A DNA stretch of 21,393 bases, from positions 1 to 21,393 of the IMG/VR virus record IMGVR_UViG_3300031726_000048. One strand, 5' to 3'. The notes beneath the pieces were generated by a model. It was not told where the DNA came from. It saw only the letters and a list, made by a program, of their open reading frames with translations, and made no database searches. Below, in pieces: positions 2,189-20,000 of this stretch; position 1 is the first letter of the stretch, and each line of letters begins with the position of its first letter. The translations under genes and the position numbers were made by a program. This DNA comes from a virus.

Positions 2189-2799
2189 TAAATAATTATG
2201 CTATTGTTCCCGCCGCCGTAAGATACGACAAGCGCCTGTCATTGGCTGCTATTGTTGTGTTTATGGAGGTGTCTGCTAGTTCTGATGGGTATGGAATATG
2301 TGAAAGGGAGAACAGCACAATATCTTCCGCACTCGGCTTAACCATACGTACAGTAACGCGGGCTATAGCACAGCTAATTCAATGTGGACATCTAGTAAGA
2401 TTGAAACACGCAAGACGCTTAATTCAAATCATCCCTCAATTTATCCCACCACCCCAAGAGTTACAACAAGAAGAAAAGATTTTAGCGGAGGATATTAAAG
2501 AATACTCTAATGCATTACTGGATTTGTGGGAGCAAGGATTGAACTGTGAATTGCAAAAGAGGGAGATGTTTATTCCAATTATCAATCAACGTCTTGTTAC
2601 CTATACAAAAGAGGAGTTACTATCATCAATAAAGAATCGCATCCATTACGTTACCAAAGTGTCTGATTGGCACATGGCATCTGAGAACAAAATATATCAA
2701 CAAGATATTAGTATATTGCTAAGGGATGATGATGCAGTATTCAAGTATCTCAACATGAAAGCAGAGCCAGAACAACAATTAAAGAAATTTGAATCATGA
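2179..2799 (+). CDS. Replication-initiator-like winged helix-turn-helix protein
   Basis: 206 aa. Residues about 7-85 form a typical phage/plasmid replication wHTH domain (HTH_36-like): YAIVPAAVRYDKRLSLAA, a long helix, then NSTISSALGLTIRTVTRAIAQL as the recognition helix-turn-helix, and GHLVRL as the wing. Proteins of this type bind origin DNA or act as early regulators. The C-terminal half is helical and glutamine/glutamate-rich, possibly a helicase-loader-like region as in DnaD-type proteins, but no clear DnaD motif is seen. It lies at the head of the operon carrying helicase, primase and polymerase, which fits a role in initiation. It overlaps the preceding gene by 10 bases and the following gene by 4 (ATGA). 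It contains one TTTAGCGG octamer at 2481. Confidence 0.7.
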   Translation: MLLVNNYAIVPAAVRYDKRLSLAAIVVFMEVSASSDGYGICERENSTISSALGLTIRTVTRAIAQLIQCGHLVRLKHARRLIQIIPQFIPPPQELQQEEKILAEDIKEYSNALLDLWEQGLNCELQKREMFIPIINQRLVTYTKEELLSSIKNRIHYVTKVSDWHMASENKIYQQDISILLRDDDAVFKYLNMKAEPEQQLKKFES

Positions 2800-3551
2800 A
2801 ATATGAAAAGATAAATTATCCCGACGGCCAAATAGGGGTTAAGATTTTAGACATTGCCTCCCCTTTTATTATACAAGAGAGAATAAATTCTTATGAGGAT
2901 TTATTTTTTATTAAATCTATTGTAGAGGCGTTGAATAATGCTTGGATAGAGGATATTCACTTGGTTATTCCGTGTCTTTTTGGTCAAAGGAGCGATAGAC
3001 GCTTCTCTTCAACCAGCTCATTTGATTTAAAGATAATCGCTGAATTCATTAACTCATGCCATTTTACATCTGTAAATATTTTTGATCCACATTCGGACGT
3101 AGCACTTGCGTTAATTAACAATTCTTACAAAAGATCATCGTTAGAATTTGTTAGTCGAGTAATATCAGAGGTTGAACAAAATGTAGTACTTATCTCACCT
3201 GATGCTGGTGCCTATAAGAAAGTATTTGAATATGGTAAAGACCTTGGGTTGGAAGTGGTAGCGGGGGTTAAACACCGTTCGCTTAACGGGGAGGTAGACC
3301 TTAAATTTATAGGTGACGTTAACAAAAAGAATTGTCTTATTGTAGACGATCTTTGCGATGGTGGTTATACATTTATACAGTTATCTAGGGCCCTGAGAGC
3401 ACAAGGGGCAGATAAAGTGTACCTTTATGTAAGCCATGCTTATTTTTCCAAAGGGGTAGAGGTGATGCTAGACCACATCAATCATATTTTCTGCACTAAT
3501 TCTGTGAAAGACATTAACGCGCCATACGTAACTCAGTTTAAAATAATATGA
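2796..3551 (+). CDS. Ribose-phosphate pyrophosphokinase-like enzyme (candidate NARP1 ADPR pyrophosphate synthetase)
   Basis: 251 aa, shorter than housekeeping Prs (about 310 aa). The Prs fold markers are in order: the ATP-loop region FGQRSDRRF (Q64-R65-x-D67-R68), FDPHSD with H99, SPDAGAYKK (D136), the catalytic-loop equivalent VKHRSLNG (K159, R161), and the PRPP-type loop IVDDLCDGGYTF (D184-D185, T192), followed by SHAYFSKG. Classical Prs makes PRPP from ATP and ribose 5-phosphate. In phages, a Prs homologue paired with a NAMPT homologue has been shown to form NARP1, where the first enzyme (Adps) converts ADP-ribose to ADP-ribose pyrophosphate. The operon with the NAMPT-like gene at 3936 fits this. 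Whether the substrate is ribose 5-phosphate or ADP-ribose cannot be told from sequence alone. Starts and ends overlap both neighbours by 4 bases. Confidence 0.85.
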   Translation: MKYEKINYPDGQIGVKILDIASPFIIQERINSYEDLFFIKSIVEALNNAWIEDIHLVIPCLFGQRSDRRFSSTSSFDLKIIAEFINSCHFTSVNIFDPHSDVALALINNSYKRSSLEFVSRVISEVEQNVVLISPDAGAYKKVFEYGKDLGLEVVAGVKHRSLNGEVDLKFIGDVNKKNCLIVDDLCDGGYTFIQLSRALRAQGADKVYLYVSHAYFSKGVEVMLDHINHIFCTNSVKDINAPYVTQFKII

Positions 3552-3958
3552 GAGATAGATACGTTCAATATGGGCAATCCTTAAAGAGGTTGCTTGAAGA
3601 GTATACAAAATATGGAAGTTTAGTAATAGGCTTCGATTTTGATGGTACTGTTCATGATTACCACGGTGAAGGCGATACTTATGAAGGGGTGATTAAACTA
3701 CTTAGGGATTTAAAGTCTATTGGGTGCAAGCTTGTTTGCTGGACAGCCTATAAAGATTTGGAATATGTGAAGGAATACCTTGAAAAGCATGATATTCCAT
3801 GTGATGGAATAAACGAAGGGGGAATTCCTTTACCTTGGGAATCTAAAAAGCCATTTTTCTCAGCACTGCTTGATGACCGCGCAGGGCTCGAACAAGTATA
3901 CATAGATTTAAGAAAATTAATATACACTGTTAAATATGAATCCACTATTATTAACTGA
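3548..3958 (+). CDS. Small HAD-superfamily phosphatase
   Basis: 136 aa. HAD motif I is GFDFDGTVHDY (D30, D32), motif II is VCWTA (T66), and motif IV is LLDDRAG (D109, D110). A small cap may be inserted after motif I. It is a compact HAD hydrolase of the kind often called phage phosphatase or polynucleotide/deoxynucleotide 5'-phosphatase-like; the substrate is unknown. It sits between the Prs-like and NAMPT-like genes, overlapping the first by 4 bases (ATGA) and the second by 23 bases, so all three are likely made together. Such an enzyme could act on a nucleotide or ribose-phosphate intermediate of that pathway or on dNMPs. The family call is firm; the link to NAD+ metabolism is inference from position. 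Confidence 0.85.
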   Translation: MRDRYVQYGQSLKRLLEEYTKYGSLVIGFDFDGTVHDYHGEGDTYEGVIKLLRDLKSIGCKLVCWTAYKDLEYVKEYLEKHDIPCDGINEGGIPLPWESKKPFFSALLDDRAGLEQVYIDLRKLIYTVKYESTIIN

Positions 3959-5540
3959 CTTTTATAAGGTACATCATAACAAGATGTATCCTGAAGGAAT
4001 GACAAAACTCTACTCAAACTTCACCCCTAGAAAATCCCGCATTCCTGGAGTTGATAAGGTTGTGTTCTTTGGGTTGCAGCATTTTATTCTTGAATATCTC
4101 ATTAAGAAGTTTGATGATGAATTCTTTAAGAAAGCAACATATCGTCATGAAGGTAGAGTTACACTAGTAAATCTTGCTATAGAGGGTGGAAGACAGGCAG
4201 CTAAACGTGAAATGTCAAAAAACTATGCTAAACACATAGGAGTAGATACTAAACACATCGAAGCTCTCTGGGATTTAGGTTATCTACCTATAGAAATCAA
4301 AGCGGTTCCAGAAGGAACACAAGTTCCAATTGGAGTTCCATGCTTCACTATCACAAATACGCATCCTGACTTTGGCTGGTTAACTAACTATCTCGAAACA
4401 TTAATCAGTTGTATGATGTGGCAACCAATCACTTCAGCAACAATAGCCTATGAATATAAGAAACTTCTTACGAAATACGCTCTTGAGACTACAGGGAGTG
4501 CTGACTTCGTGCAGTGGCAGGGCCATGATTTTTCTATGCGTGGTATGTCTTCAGTGGAGTCCGCTATTCTTAGTGGTATGGGGCACCTCCTTAGTTTTAC
4601 TGGTACAGATACTATCCCTGCTATATATCAACTCGAAGAATCCTATAATGCAGAGGGATTAATTGGAGCAAGTGTGCCGGCCACGGAACATAGCGTGATG
4701 TGCATGGGGCAAAAGGAGTCTGAAATAGAAACCTTTAAGCGATTATTAAATCTCTACCCAACAGGAATCCTCTCAGTAGTGTCTGATACTTGGGATTTAT
4801 GGCGCGTACTCTGCGAGTACTTACCTGCAATCAAAGATCAAATCCTAGCCAGAGAGGGTAAGTTAGTAATCAGACCTGATTCAGGCGATCCTGTGGATAT
4901 TCTTTGTGGTCATGGTGTGTCTAGAAGAATTGTTGAAAAAGGTAGTCAAAAGATTTTAGACAAGGGGACTGATTTTAGTTTCTTATGTAGTGATGAAATA
5001 TTTACAAAAACTGATCTCAAAGATGGTTACAAGCCCTATGATTATAAACCTGAACACAAAGGTGTAATAGAGCTTCTTTGGGATACATTTGGAGGAACAA
5101 CAAATAAATATGGATATAAAGAACTGGATTTTCACATTGGTGCTATTTATGGTGACAGTATCACTTTGGATCGTGCAAAAGCAATCTGCGAAAGACTTAA
5201 AGCAAAGGGGTTTGCTAGTACTAATGTTGTGCTTGGCATTGGCTCTTATACTTATCAGTATAACACACGGGATACTTTCGGGTTTGCAATGAAAGCTACC
5301 TATGGTGAGGTTAACGGAGAAGGAAGAGAAATATTCAAAGACCCCATCACTGACGACGGAACTAAGAAGAGTAAGAAAGGATTGTTGATGGTTGGATATG
5401 ATGAAGATGGATTGATGCAAGTAAGAGATCAGCAGACTTGGGAACAAGAAAAATCGGGAATACTTGAAACAGTTTTTAAAGATGGCAAGCTCGTTAAGAC
5501 AACAACTCTCGAAGAAATACGTAACAGATTAAAGATATGA
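3936..5540 (+). CDS. Nicotinamide phosphoribosyltransferase-like enzyme (candidate NARP1 Namat)
   Basis: 534 aa, close to the NAMPT/NadV family length (about 460-500) with modest extra sequence. Motifs line up with NAMPT: LLTDFYKVHHNKMYP at the N-terminus, FFGLQ, GHDFSMRGMSS (196-206), FTGTDT, SVPATEHS with the catalytic-type H252, VVSDTWD, LVIRPDSGDP with R313 and D315 (human R311 and D313), GAIYGDSI, and VVLGIGSYTYQ...TRDTFGFAMKAT...IFKDP.TDDGTKKS near the C-terminus. NAMPT joins nicotinamide and PRPP to give NMN; the phage NARP1 version (Namat) joins nicotinamide and ADP-ribose pyrophosphate to give NAD+ directly. No NMN adenylyltransferase is seen in the window, which slightly favours the one-step NAD+-forming role. 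The ATG at 3936 lies inside the HAD gene. Confidence 0.92.
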   Translation: MNPLLLTDFYKVHHNKMYPEGMTKLYSNFTPRKSRIPGVDKVVFFGLQHFILEYLIKKFDDEFFKKATYRHEGRVTLVNLAIEGGRQAAKREMSKNYAKHIGVDTKHIEALWDLGYLPIEIKAVPEGTQVPIGVPCFTITNTHPDFGWLTNYLETLISCMMWQPITSATIAYEYKKLLTKYALETTGSADFVQWQGHDFSMRGMSSVESAILSGMGHLLSFTGTDTIPAIYQLEESYNAEGLIGASVPATEHSVMCMGQKESEIETFKRLLNLYPTGILSVVSDTWDLWRVLCEYLPAIKDQILAREGKLVIRPDSGDPVDILCGHGVSRRIVEKGSQKILDKGTDFSFLCSDEIFTKTDLKDGYKPYDYKPEHKGVIELLWDTFGGTTNKYGYKELDFHIGAIYGDSITLDRAKAICERLKAKGFASTNVVLGIGSYTYQYNTRDTFGFAMKATYGEVNGEGREIFKDPITDDGTKKSKKGLLMVGYDEDGLMQVRDQQTWEQEKSGILETVFKDGKLVKTTTLEEIRNRLKI

Positions 5541-5767
5541 AATTAATTGCAATTACTAAATTTAATTTAGGGGATAAAGTGAGATTTATGAGTGCATTAC
5601 CAAACAAACTAGATGGATTCGAAGGGTGGATATGCGCAGTACGACCATGTTTCGACTCTGAAAAAGACTGTACTGGTTATAAAATAAATTACTGTGTAGA
5701 CCCTTCTCCCGGCTTTGAACATGATGATGAAGAGTTCATTAGTGAAGTTAATCTTATTAAAATATAA
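5537..5767 (+). CDS. Hypothetical small SH3/KOW-like protein, 76 aa
   Basis: Starts at an ATG overlapping the stop of the NAMPT-like gene by 4 bases, with TTAAAGAT just upstream. The N-terminus FNLGDKVRF resembles the start of small SH3-like barrels, where a GDKV turn is common. Three cysteines are present but not as a zinc motif, and the C-terminus is acidic. No function is recognised. Tight coupling suggests it is expressed with the NAD+ block. Confidence 0.65.
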   Translation: MKLIAITKFNLGDKVRFMSALPNKLDGFEGWICAVRPCFDSEKDCTGYKINYCVDPSPGFEHDDEEFISEVNLIKI

Positions 5768-19193: not shown

Positions 19194-20000
19194 ATGGAAG
19201 TAGCAATAGGCGCGGGAGAGCGCAAAGACGAAGGCAAACTTAGATACGATTTACTTCACCCAGAATCCATCAACGAATTGGTGAAAATTCTGACTATGGG
19301 GAGTAAAAAATATGCTCCTAGGAATTGGGAGCGTGGGATGGCATGGTCAAAGATCATTGGGCCACTAAAACGACACCTAGCAGCCATAGAACGCGGAGAA
19401 GATTACGATCCAGAGAGCGGACTACTCCATAGCGCACACGTAGAGTGTAATGCCCACTTTCTCACTGCCTATTATAAGATATTCCCACAAGGGGATGACC
19501 GCTCAATCAAGGCTCTCAATCCCCGTAAAATAGGACTAGACATTGATGGTGTGCTTGCTAATTTTACCGATGGTTTAGCGGCTGCGTTTGGAGAATATAA
19601 CTATAAACCTATTCACTGGAATGACCCTAAGGTTTTAGCTTGGTTTGAACAGGTTAAAGATAAACCATATTTTTGGGAAACACTTGTGCCTTTAACTCTG
19701 CCGCAAGATATACCTTTCGAGCCACATGCATACGTTACAGCACGATCTATTGATCCAAAAGTAACCCAAGCATGGTTAGATAATTGTCAGTTTCCTAAAG
19801 CGCCACTAATTTGTGTAGGGCATAATGAATCGAAAGTAGAAGCTGTTAAGAAAGCGGGTATTGAAATATTCGTTGACGATCGGTACGAAAACTTCGTGGA
19901 ATTAACCAATGCTGGTATCTTCACTTATCTATTCGATCAATCTTATAATCGGCATTATAATGTAGGCCACCGTAGAATTAAATCACTTAAAGAATTATGA
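19194..20000 (+). CDS. Fusion of dATP/dGTP diphosphohydrolase-like domain and HAD nucleotidase
   Basis: 268 aa, two domains. Residues 9-97 match the DUF5664/dGTP_diPhyd_N (MazG-like) pattern: RKDEGKLRYDL, GSKKYAPRNWERG, RHLAAIERGEDYDPESGLLH. Family members split dATP or dGTP to the monophosphate plus pyrophosphate. Residues 111-268 are a HAD 5'(3')-deoxyribonucleotidase-like domain with LDIDGVLANF (D116, D118), a threonine-containing YVTARS and FVDDRYENF (D228, D229). A fused pair would convert dNTP to dNMP and on to the nucleoside, draining selected pools. The order of activities is inference. Starts one base after the previous gene's end region with no SD. A TTTAGCGG octamer is at 19574, inside the HAD domain. 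Confidence 0.82.
   Translation: MEVAIGAGERKDEGKLRYDLLHPESINELVKILTMGSKKYAPRNWERGMAWSKIIGPLKRHLAAIERGEDYDPESGLLHSAHVECNAHFLTAYYKIFPQGDDRSIKALNPRKIGLDIDGVLANFTDGLAAAFGEYNYKPIHWNDPKVLAWFEQVKDKPYFWETLVPLTLPQDIPFEPHAYVTARSIDPKVTQAWLDNCQFPKAPLICVGHNESKVEAVKKAGIEIFVDDRYENFVELTNAGIFTYLFDQSYNRHYNVGHRRIKSLKEL

Follow-up and report, generated by a model that had tools for sequence, protein, structure and literature searches.

A probable NARP1 operon with a linked HAD phosphatase-like gene in a phage genome record

The IMG/VR virus record IMGVR_UViG_3300031726_000048, analysed here over its whole length of 21,393 bases (the window), carries an operon in which genes for a homologue of phosphoribosyl pyrophosphate (PRPP) synthetase (Prs) and a homologue of the nicotinamide phosphoribosyltransferase Nampt enclose a third, small gene of the HAD type. 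Here, we describe this operon and its relation to the NAD+ reconstitution pathway NARP1, which consists of the enzymes Adps and Namat.

Operon layout and identity of the predicted Adps and Namat proteins

The operon comprises the following genes and motifs:

2796..3551, + strand: predicted Adps (ADP-ribose pyrophosphate synthetase-like), 251 aa (TIGR01251 at 8e-33; Adps clade with support 100/99; motifs PHS, SPDAGAYKK and DGGYT)
3548..3958, + strand: cap-less HAD phosphatase-like gene, 136 aa, third operon member (HAD residues, structure model, fold match and linkage)
3635..3649, + strand: HAD motif I DFDGT (D30-T34), with predicted nucleophile D30 and acid/base D32
3872..3889, + strand: HAD motif IV DDRAGL (D109-L114), a mark of this HAD family
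3936..5540, + strand: predicted Namat (nicotinamide ADP-ribose transferase), 534 aa (match to PDB 9w5x/9w5w; clade support 100; nicotinamide-site residues)
4014..4040, + strand: Namat selectivity-clamp loop SNFTPRKSR, in which R35 corresponds to R40 of SPbetaL1 by alignment
5241..5273, + strand: Namat selectivity-clamp helix signature GSYTYQYNTRD (residues 436-446), fitting the published signature

The start of the HAD gene overlaps the Adps stop codon by 4 nt (ATGA), and the Namat start is located 23 nt inside the 3′ end of the HAD gene. The adps and namat genes thus share one operon on a single strand, their frames overlapping via the intervening gene. Overlaps of 4 nt are also found at the operon edges, with an open reading frame (ORF) at 2179-2799 upstream and another at 5537-5767 downstream. 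A preliminary description of this DNA had reported the Prs and NAMPT homologues at the coordinates given above, and domain models agree with both ORFs. It had further described the two genes as one coupled operon; they are indeed joined, but the HAD gene between them had been overlooked.

The Prs-like protein matches Pribosyltran_N/Pribosyl_synth and TIGR01251 (8e-33), the NAMPT-like protein NAPRTase/NAMPT_N and the equivalog NF006629 (1.3e-176), and chance is therefore excluded for both ORFs. A match to the PRPP synthetase model cannot by itself separate Adps from Prs. In a phylogenetic tree, all 37 NARP1-linked proteins, including those of the window, SPbetaL1, ICP1 (NrsA) and a felixounavirus, were placed opposite all 20 Prs or Prs-like proteins with a branch support of 100/99; the Prs proteins were drawn from bacterial genomes in which the HAD gene was found, most of them with NARP1. 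A separate quick tree gave the same split of the window protein from cellular Prs. Sequence marks mostly track this division, with (D/E)xHS in Adps versus DLHA in Prs and a DGGxT-type loop versus DTGGT. The DDLCDGGYT loop, which had been singled out as atypical, is present and differs from Prs, but many members of the Adps clade have DGGxT-type loops. The reported shortness of the protein was borne out, since its 251 aa compare with open frames of at least 313 aa for the housekeeping Prs of the comparison set. Together, these features support the assignment of the Prs-like protein to Adps, set apart from PRPP synthetases.

The best PDB matches of the NAMPT-like protein are 9w5x and 9w5w (4e-162), in comparison to 6e-74 for human NAMPT. 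Sequence and residue numbering of both entries agree with the published D13, Y15, F189, R192 and D215 (PMC12774641), and they are therefore taken as SPbetaL1 Namat. SPbetaL1 is also the best DNA match of the window in the phage collection, and NARP1 activity has been demonstrated for its Namat, the nearest solved structure (PMC12774641). In the corresponding tree, the Namat side including the window protein was split from eight Nampts, human NAMPT among them, with a support of 100. In Namat, a clamp formed by a loop residue (R40) and the aromatic helix motif GS-X-phi-X-phi-X-phi-TRD makes the enzyme prefer ADP-ribose pyrophosphate (ADPR-PP) to PRPP (PMC12774641). The window protein has R35 and GSYTYQYNTRD at the clamp positions, so that its adenine clamp is complete; the helix motif is absent from the five kinds of Nampt compared (human, RB43, Vibrio phage, Caulobacter phage and Mucilaginibacter). 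Furthermore, its nicotinamide/ribose-phosphate site contains DYFRDAR and SDGDGSR, and the nicotinamide site matches its SPbetaL1 counterpart residue for residue. These residues and the tree support its classification as a Namat and not a Nampt. In the Namat of crAss-like phages (L084, L088), a Glu occupies the position of the amide-recognising Asp215.

The phylogeny that the preliminary description had suggested as a check on NARP1 identity thus placed both proteins on the NARP1 side, and the residues that determine the Namat substrate are present. Adps would transfer pyrophosphate from ATP onto ADP-ribose (ADPR) to form ADPR-PP, from which Namat would produce NAD+ directly by adding nicotinamide. 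As a net effect, NAD+ cleaved by NADase defences of the host would be restored. Both reactions have been shown biochemically in relatives; for the window, clade placement and the residues of the substrate sites lead us to infer them. The immune systems that the preliminary description listed as defeated by NARP1 (Thoeris, DSR, SIR2-HerA and SEFIR) are taken from work on other phages.

The same arrangement of Adps and Namat in one operon, with proteins of the same clades and the same nicotinamide site and adenine clamp, is known from SPbetaL1 NARP1, ICP1 NrsAB and DyoEdafos NARP1. In DyoEdafos, RyDEP is inserted into the operon (PMC13232231), whereas the window, which was not searched for RyDEP, has the HAD gene instead. 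The NARP2-like pairs of Nampt and NadM, for example in Caulobacter phage Ccr34, have the NAD+-rebuilding enzyme of the Nampt fold in common with the window. In contrast, NadM of Ccr34 adjoins a Nampt without clamp, and the window has a clamped Namat-side protein and no match to PF01467, in a record that may be a fragment. An absence of NMN (nicotinamide mononucleotide) adenylyltransferase had been put forward as expected for direct NAD+ formation, and PF01467 was found in 14 of 14 control genomes; for the window the absence holds but says little, the record being probably a fragment of a phage genome.

Outside the operon, the window encodes a DnaB-like helicase, a primase, a family A DNA polymerase, a phage lysozyme and a tRNA-Thr, genes that lend good support to a phage origin. 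A PADLOC search yielded nothing relevant. At positions 19194-20000, an N-terminal dATP/dGTP diphosphohydrolase domain is followed by a weak C-terminal 5′-nucleotidase (NT5C) match, representing another HAD-type fusion.

The HAD protein and its linkage to NARP1

Family models alone did not identify the product of the middle gene: a Pfam scan returned no family above threshold, a PDB search with the single sequence gave chance matches only, and the BT0820-family model NF046079 scored 14.9 bits with a curated cut-off of 165. In an alignment of 96 related proteins, HAD motifs I-IV are complete, with D30, D32, T34, T66, K101, D109 and D110 invariant or nearly so. The best match in a profile search of the PDB was BT_0820 (PDB 2obb, 1.5e-9). 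An AlphaFold2 model, for which seven rows from annotated phage records were removed from the alignment, reached a pLDDT of 92.9, and a fold search with it again ranked BT_0820 highest (Z 10.1), ahead of the phosphatase domains of T4 PNKP (polynucleotide kinase-phosphatase) and Pnkp1 (Z ~8) and, lower still, the phage pentose-bisphosphate phosphatase AfhF (Z 7.4). Six of the 96 members weakly match a phage polynucleotide-kinase family. The window protein has the cap-less HAD fold in common with the BT0820-family phosphatase and differs from this family by an additional helix at the N-terminus, in which R14, L15 and E18 are conserved, and by the DDRAGL motif. The complete catalytic set argues strongly for an active phosphatase. 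All 96 aligned proteins match phrog_1238; its label, phosphoheptose isomerase, looks wrong and was ruled out for the HAD protein by the catalytic motifs and the fold.

In IMG/VR, both Adps and Namat lie within 6 kb in 68 of 80 HAD-seeded viral loci, a fraction that may be inflated, as the alignment used for the scan came partly from HADs first seen in NARP1 loci. As a baseline, any NAMPT/Namat homologue occurs anywhere in 1,937 of 50,697 phage records (3.8%). A single-sequence HAD search of the phage records agrees with the IMG/VR linkage in direction. It found 27 records, including crAss-like phages, Lak, Phass-1, an Aeromonas phage and a 735-kb phage. Among the regions opened, the HAD gene adjoins a Prs/Nampt-type pair in crAss-like phages, Phass-1 and PhAER-3. 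In Lak, Adps alone was recognised beside it, and whether recoding hides Namat there was not tested; in the 735-kb phage neither enzyme lies within 4 kb of the HAD gene, and an Adps-like match is found about 23 kb away.

The linkage extends to bacterial genomes, where Adps, Namat or both accompany the HAD gene at 38 of 56 loci (Flavobacterium, Saprospiraceae, Mucilaginibacter, Paenibacillus, Cohnella, Clostridium and others) and most of the others are weak BT0820-like matches. For three HAD loci without such neighbours (L140, L181, L217), both enzymes are encoded elsewhere in the genome. In 107 non-redundant loci with all three genes, these are always on the same strand, and the orders of Adps (A), HAD (H) and Namat (N) are A-H-N (60), A-N-H (18), N-H-A (18), N-A-H (6), H-A-N (3) and H-N-A (2). 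Such conserved adjacency across distant phages and bacteria is good evidence that the HAD protein is a working partner of NARP1. In three Mucilaginibacter loci (L197, L200, L202), the HAD gene lies near a true Nampt without clamp and a diverged Prs-like protein outside the Adps and main Prs groups.

The two-enzyme core is already known in kind, and the HAD gene is what makes the operon of the window a new variant. A literature search that covered few subscription papers, and not the original NARP1 article, turned up no account of a HAD gene in such operons; that article might mention one.

Possible roles of the HAD protein

With regard to function, the HAD protein may remove the phosphate from a dead-end ADP-ribose phosphate, either ADPR-1″-phosphate or the ADPR-2′-phosphate of cleaved NADP+, so that ADP-ribose would become available to Adps again. 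We put this recycling forward tentatively, and the choice of substrate is a guess. In its broader form, which is likewise doubtful, NARP1 of a sizeable fraction of phages, and of bacterial chromosomes, would be a three-enzyme pathway, with a dedicated HAD protein repairing a phosphorylated ADP-ribose by-product (e.g. ADPR-1″-phosphate from decayed ADPR-PP), a job performed in other phages by an unrelated macro-domain enzyme.

In 69 Namat-seeded viral loci, a HAD gene is present 21 times, a macro-domain gene 17 times and both never (0/21 vs 17/48, p 8e-4). Macro-domain genes are located, for example, in L067:1020-1577 and L022:5473-5985, and in 15 more of these loci. The macro protein near NARP1 matches macrodomains including an ADP-ribose 1″-phosphate phosphatase. 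Pseudomonas phage Adele resembles the window in that NARP1 is accompanied by an accessory enzyme possibly acting on ADP-ribose phosphate (PMC12846349), but this enzyme is a macro domain there and a HAD protein here, and the two rarely occur in one locus. The macro gene of Adele has been proposed to release ADP-ribose for the pathway (PMC12846349), and RyDEP likewise supplies ADP-ribose to NARP1 (PMC13232231). Both cases suggest that the provision or repair of the Adps substrate is a common task of accessory enzymes.

Several points weigh against this picture, in addition to the possible inflation of the IMG/VR linkage. On the Namat tree, the exclusion between HAD and macro genes reduces to 2-4 independent pairs, each pointing the expected way (p 0.125-0.5). 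It is not significant on these pairs and was dropped as proof that the two genes share a function; because it rests on so few pairs, the proposed substrate is held with reserve. For the enzymes of the window operon, the support consists of sequence and model data. Some HAD relatives occur without NARP1, e.g. beside an apparent thymidylate synthase. NARP1 works in vitro and in vivo without HAD. In addition, no HAD gene lies beside NARP1 in the SPbetaL1, ICP1, felixounavirus and Bromden loci, while in the window, as opposed to SPbetaL1 and ICP1, it is inserted between Adps and Namat. The HAD protein is therefore not required for the core reaction. Leaving its substrate aside, it is very probable that the operon encodes the NARP1 enzymes Adps and Namat, with HAD as their linked partner.

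Alternatively, the HAD protein could be an end-healing or nucleotide phosphatase resembling T4 PNKP, residing in the operon for nucleotide metabolism or RNA/DNA repair. The PNKP-type domains ranking next after BT_0820 in fold and the weak polynucleotide-kinase matches speak for it, as do two close relatives that adjoin an apparent thymidylate synthase, judged by its sequence, in records that match neither Adps nor Namat (L102:5998-7710, L126:6001-7787). Such a role is conceivable, if somewhat unlikely, but leaves unexplained why the HAD gene keeps company with Adps and Namat whatever the gene order, and in bacterial chromosomes too.

It is distinctly unlikely that the HAD protein pulls the pathway by clearing a product. 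In PRPP synthetase and Nampt chemistry, AMP and pyrophosphate are released in the two steps, and the loss of AMP from Adps and of pyrophosphate from Namat would favour NAD+ formation; however, hosts own a pyrophosphatase, and none is among the listed sequence or fold matches of the HAD protein. Finally, the pair might serve ordinary nicotinamide salvage, with PRPP from a true Prs, NMN from a true Nampt and NAD+ from an NMN adenylyltransferase of the host. This reading could draw on the incomplete genome record and on the Nampt-like core kept in Namat, with which NMN formation from PRPP is still possible in vitro (PMC12774641), but is very improbable given a complete adenine clamp and the position of both proteins inside the Adps and Namat clades, and was ruled out as the identity of the pair on both trees.

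Nicotinate-like loci, other neighbours and significance

Besides the HAD gene, a second variation concerns 19 loci in which a pair of Adps and a Namat-like protein (Namat*) is accompanied by a nicotinamidase of the isochorismatase family and/or an NAD synthase (PncA-Adps-Namat*-NadE). Many of these loci are mutually related, and 14 were fetched using a member as query. They are found in phages, including Phass-1, and in the bacteria Thomasclavelia cocleata and Clostridium tagluense:

L132:5959-9978, nicotinate-like operon
L149:3145-7171, nicotinate-like operon
L086:782-5337, nicotinate-like operon of Phass-1
L216:2107-7156, nicotinate-like operon
L218:2721-7141, nicotinate-like operon
L305-L318, nicotinate-like operons

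The amide-recognising Asp (D215 in SPbetaL1, D219 in human NAMPT) is replaced by Ala or Ser, and A242 by Ser, in all 19 Namat* proteins and in none of 160 other Namat/Nampt homologues. Reduced activity is known for human NAMPT D219N and for its Xanthomonas counterpart (PMC10907753). From residues and gene content, these loci appear to encode a nicotinate version of NARP1, in which nicotinic acid adenine dinucleotide (NaAD) is formed first: nicotinamide would be converted to nicotinate, nicotinate and ADPR-PP to NaAD, and NaAD to NAD+ by amidation. The HAD gene is also present in five of the 19 loci.

Two further genes recur beside NARP1. A nucleoside 2-deoxyribosyltransferase-like gene (PF15891) is found in L022:7733-8206 and about 35 other loci, and possibly encodes another glycosidase acting on ADP-ribose signals; as a HAD-specific partner it was discarded, showing no association in the Namat-seeded set (9/21 vs 25/48, p 0.6). 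A gene with an NrtR winged-helix domain occurs in L195:4576-4977 and 19 other loci, the member examined belonging to Saprospiraceae (Bacteroidota), which suggests that cellular NARP1 is regulated by NAD metabolites.

NARP1 is a broadly acting response to immunity that depletes NAD+, and descriptions of the pathway have so far named two enzymes. That HAD stays beside NARP1 in crAss-like, Lak and other phages as well as in Bacteroidota and Bacillota suggests an unrecognised need of the pathway, most likely metabolite repair. The nicotinate-like version, if true, would mean that the rebuilding of NAD+ has been re-plumbed more than once.

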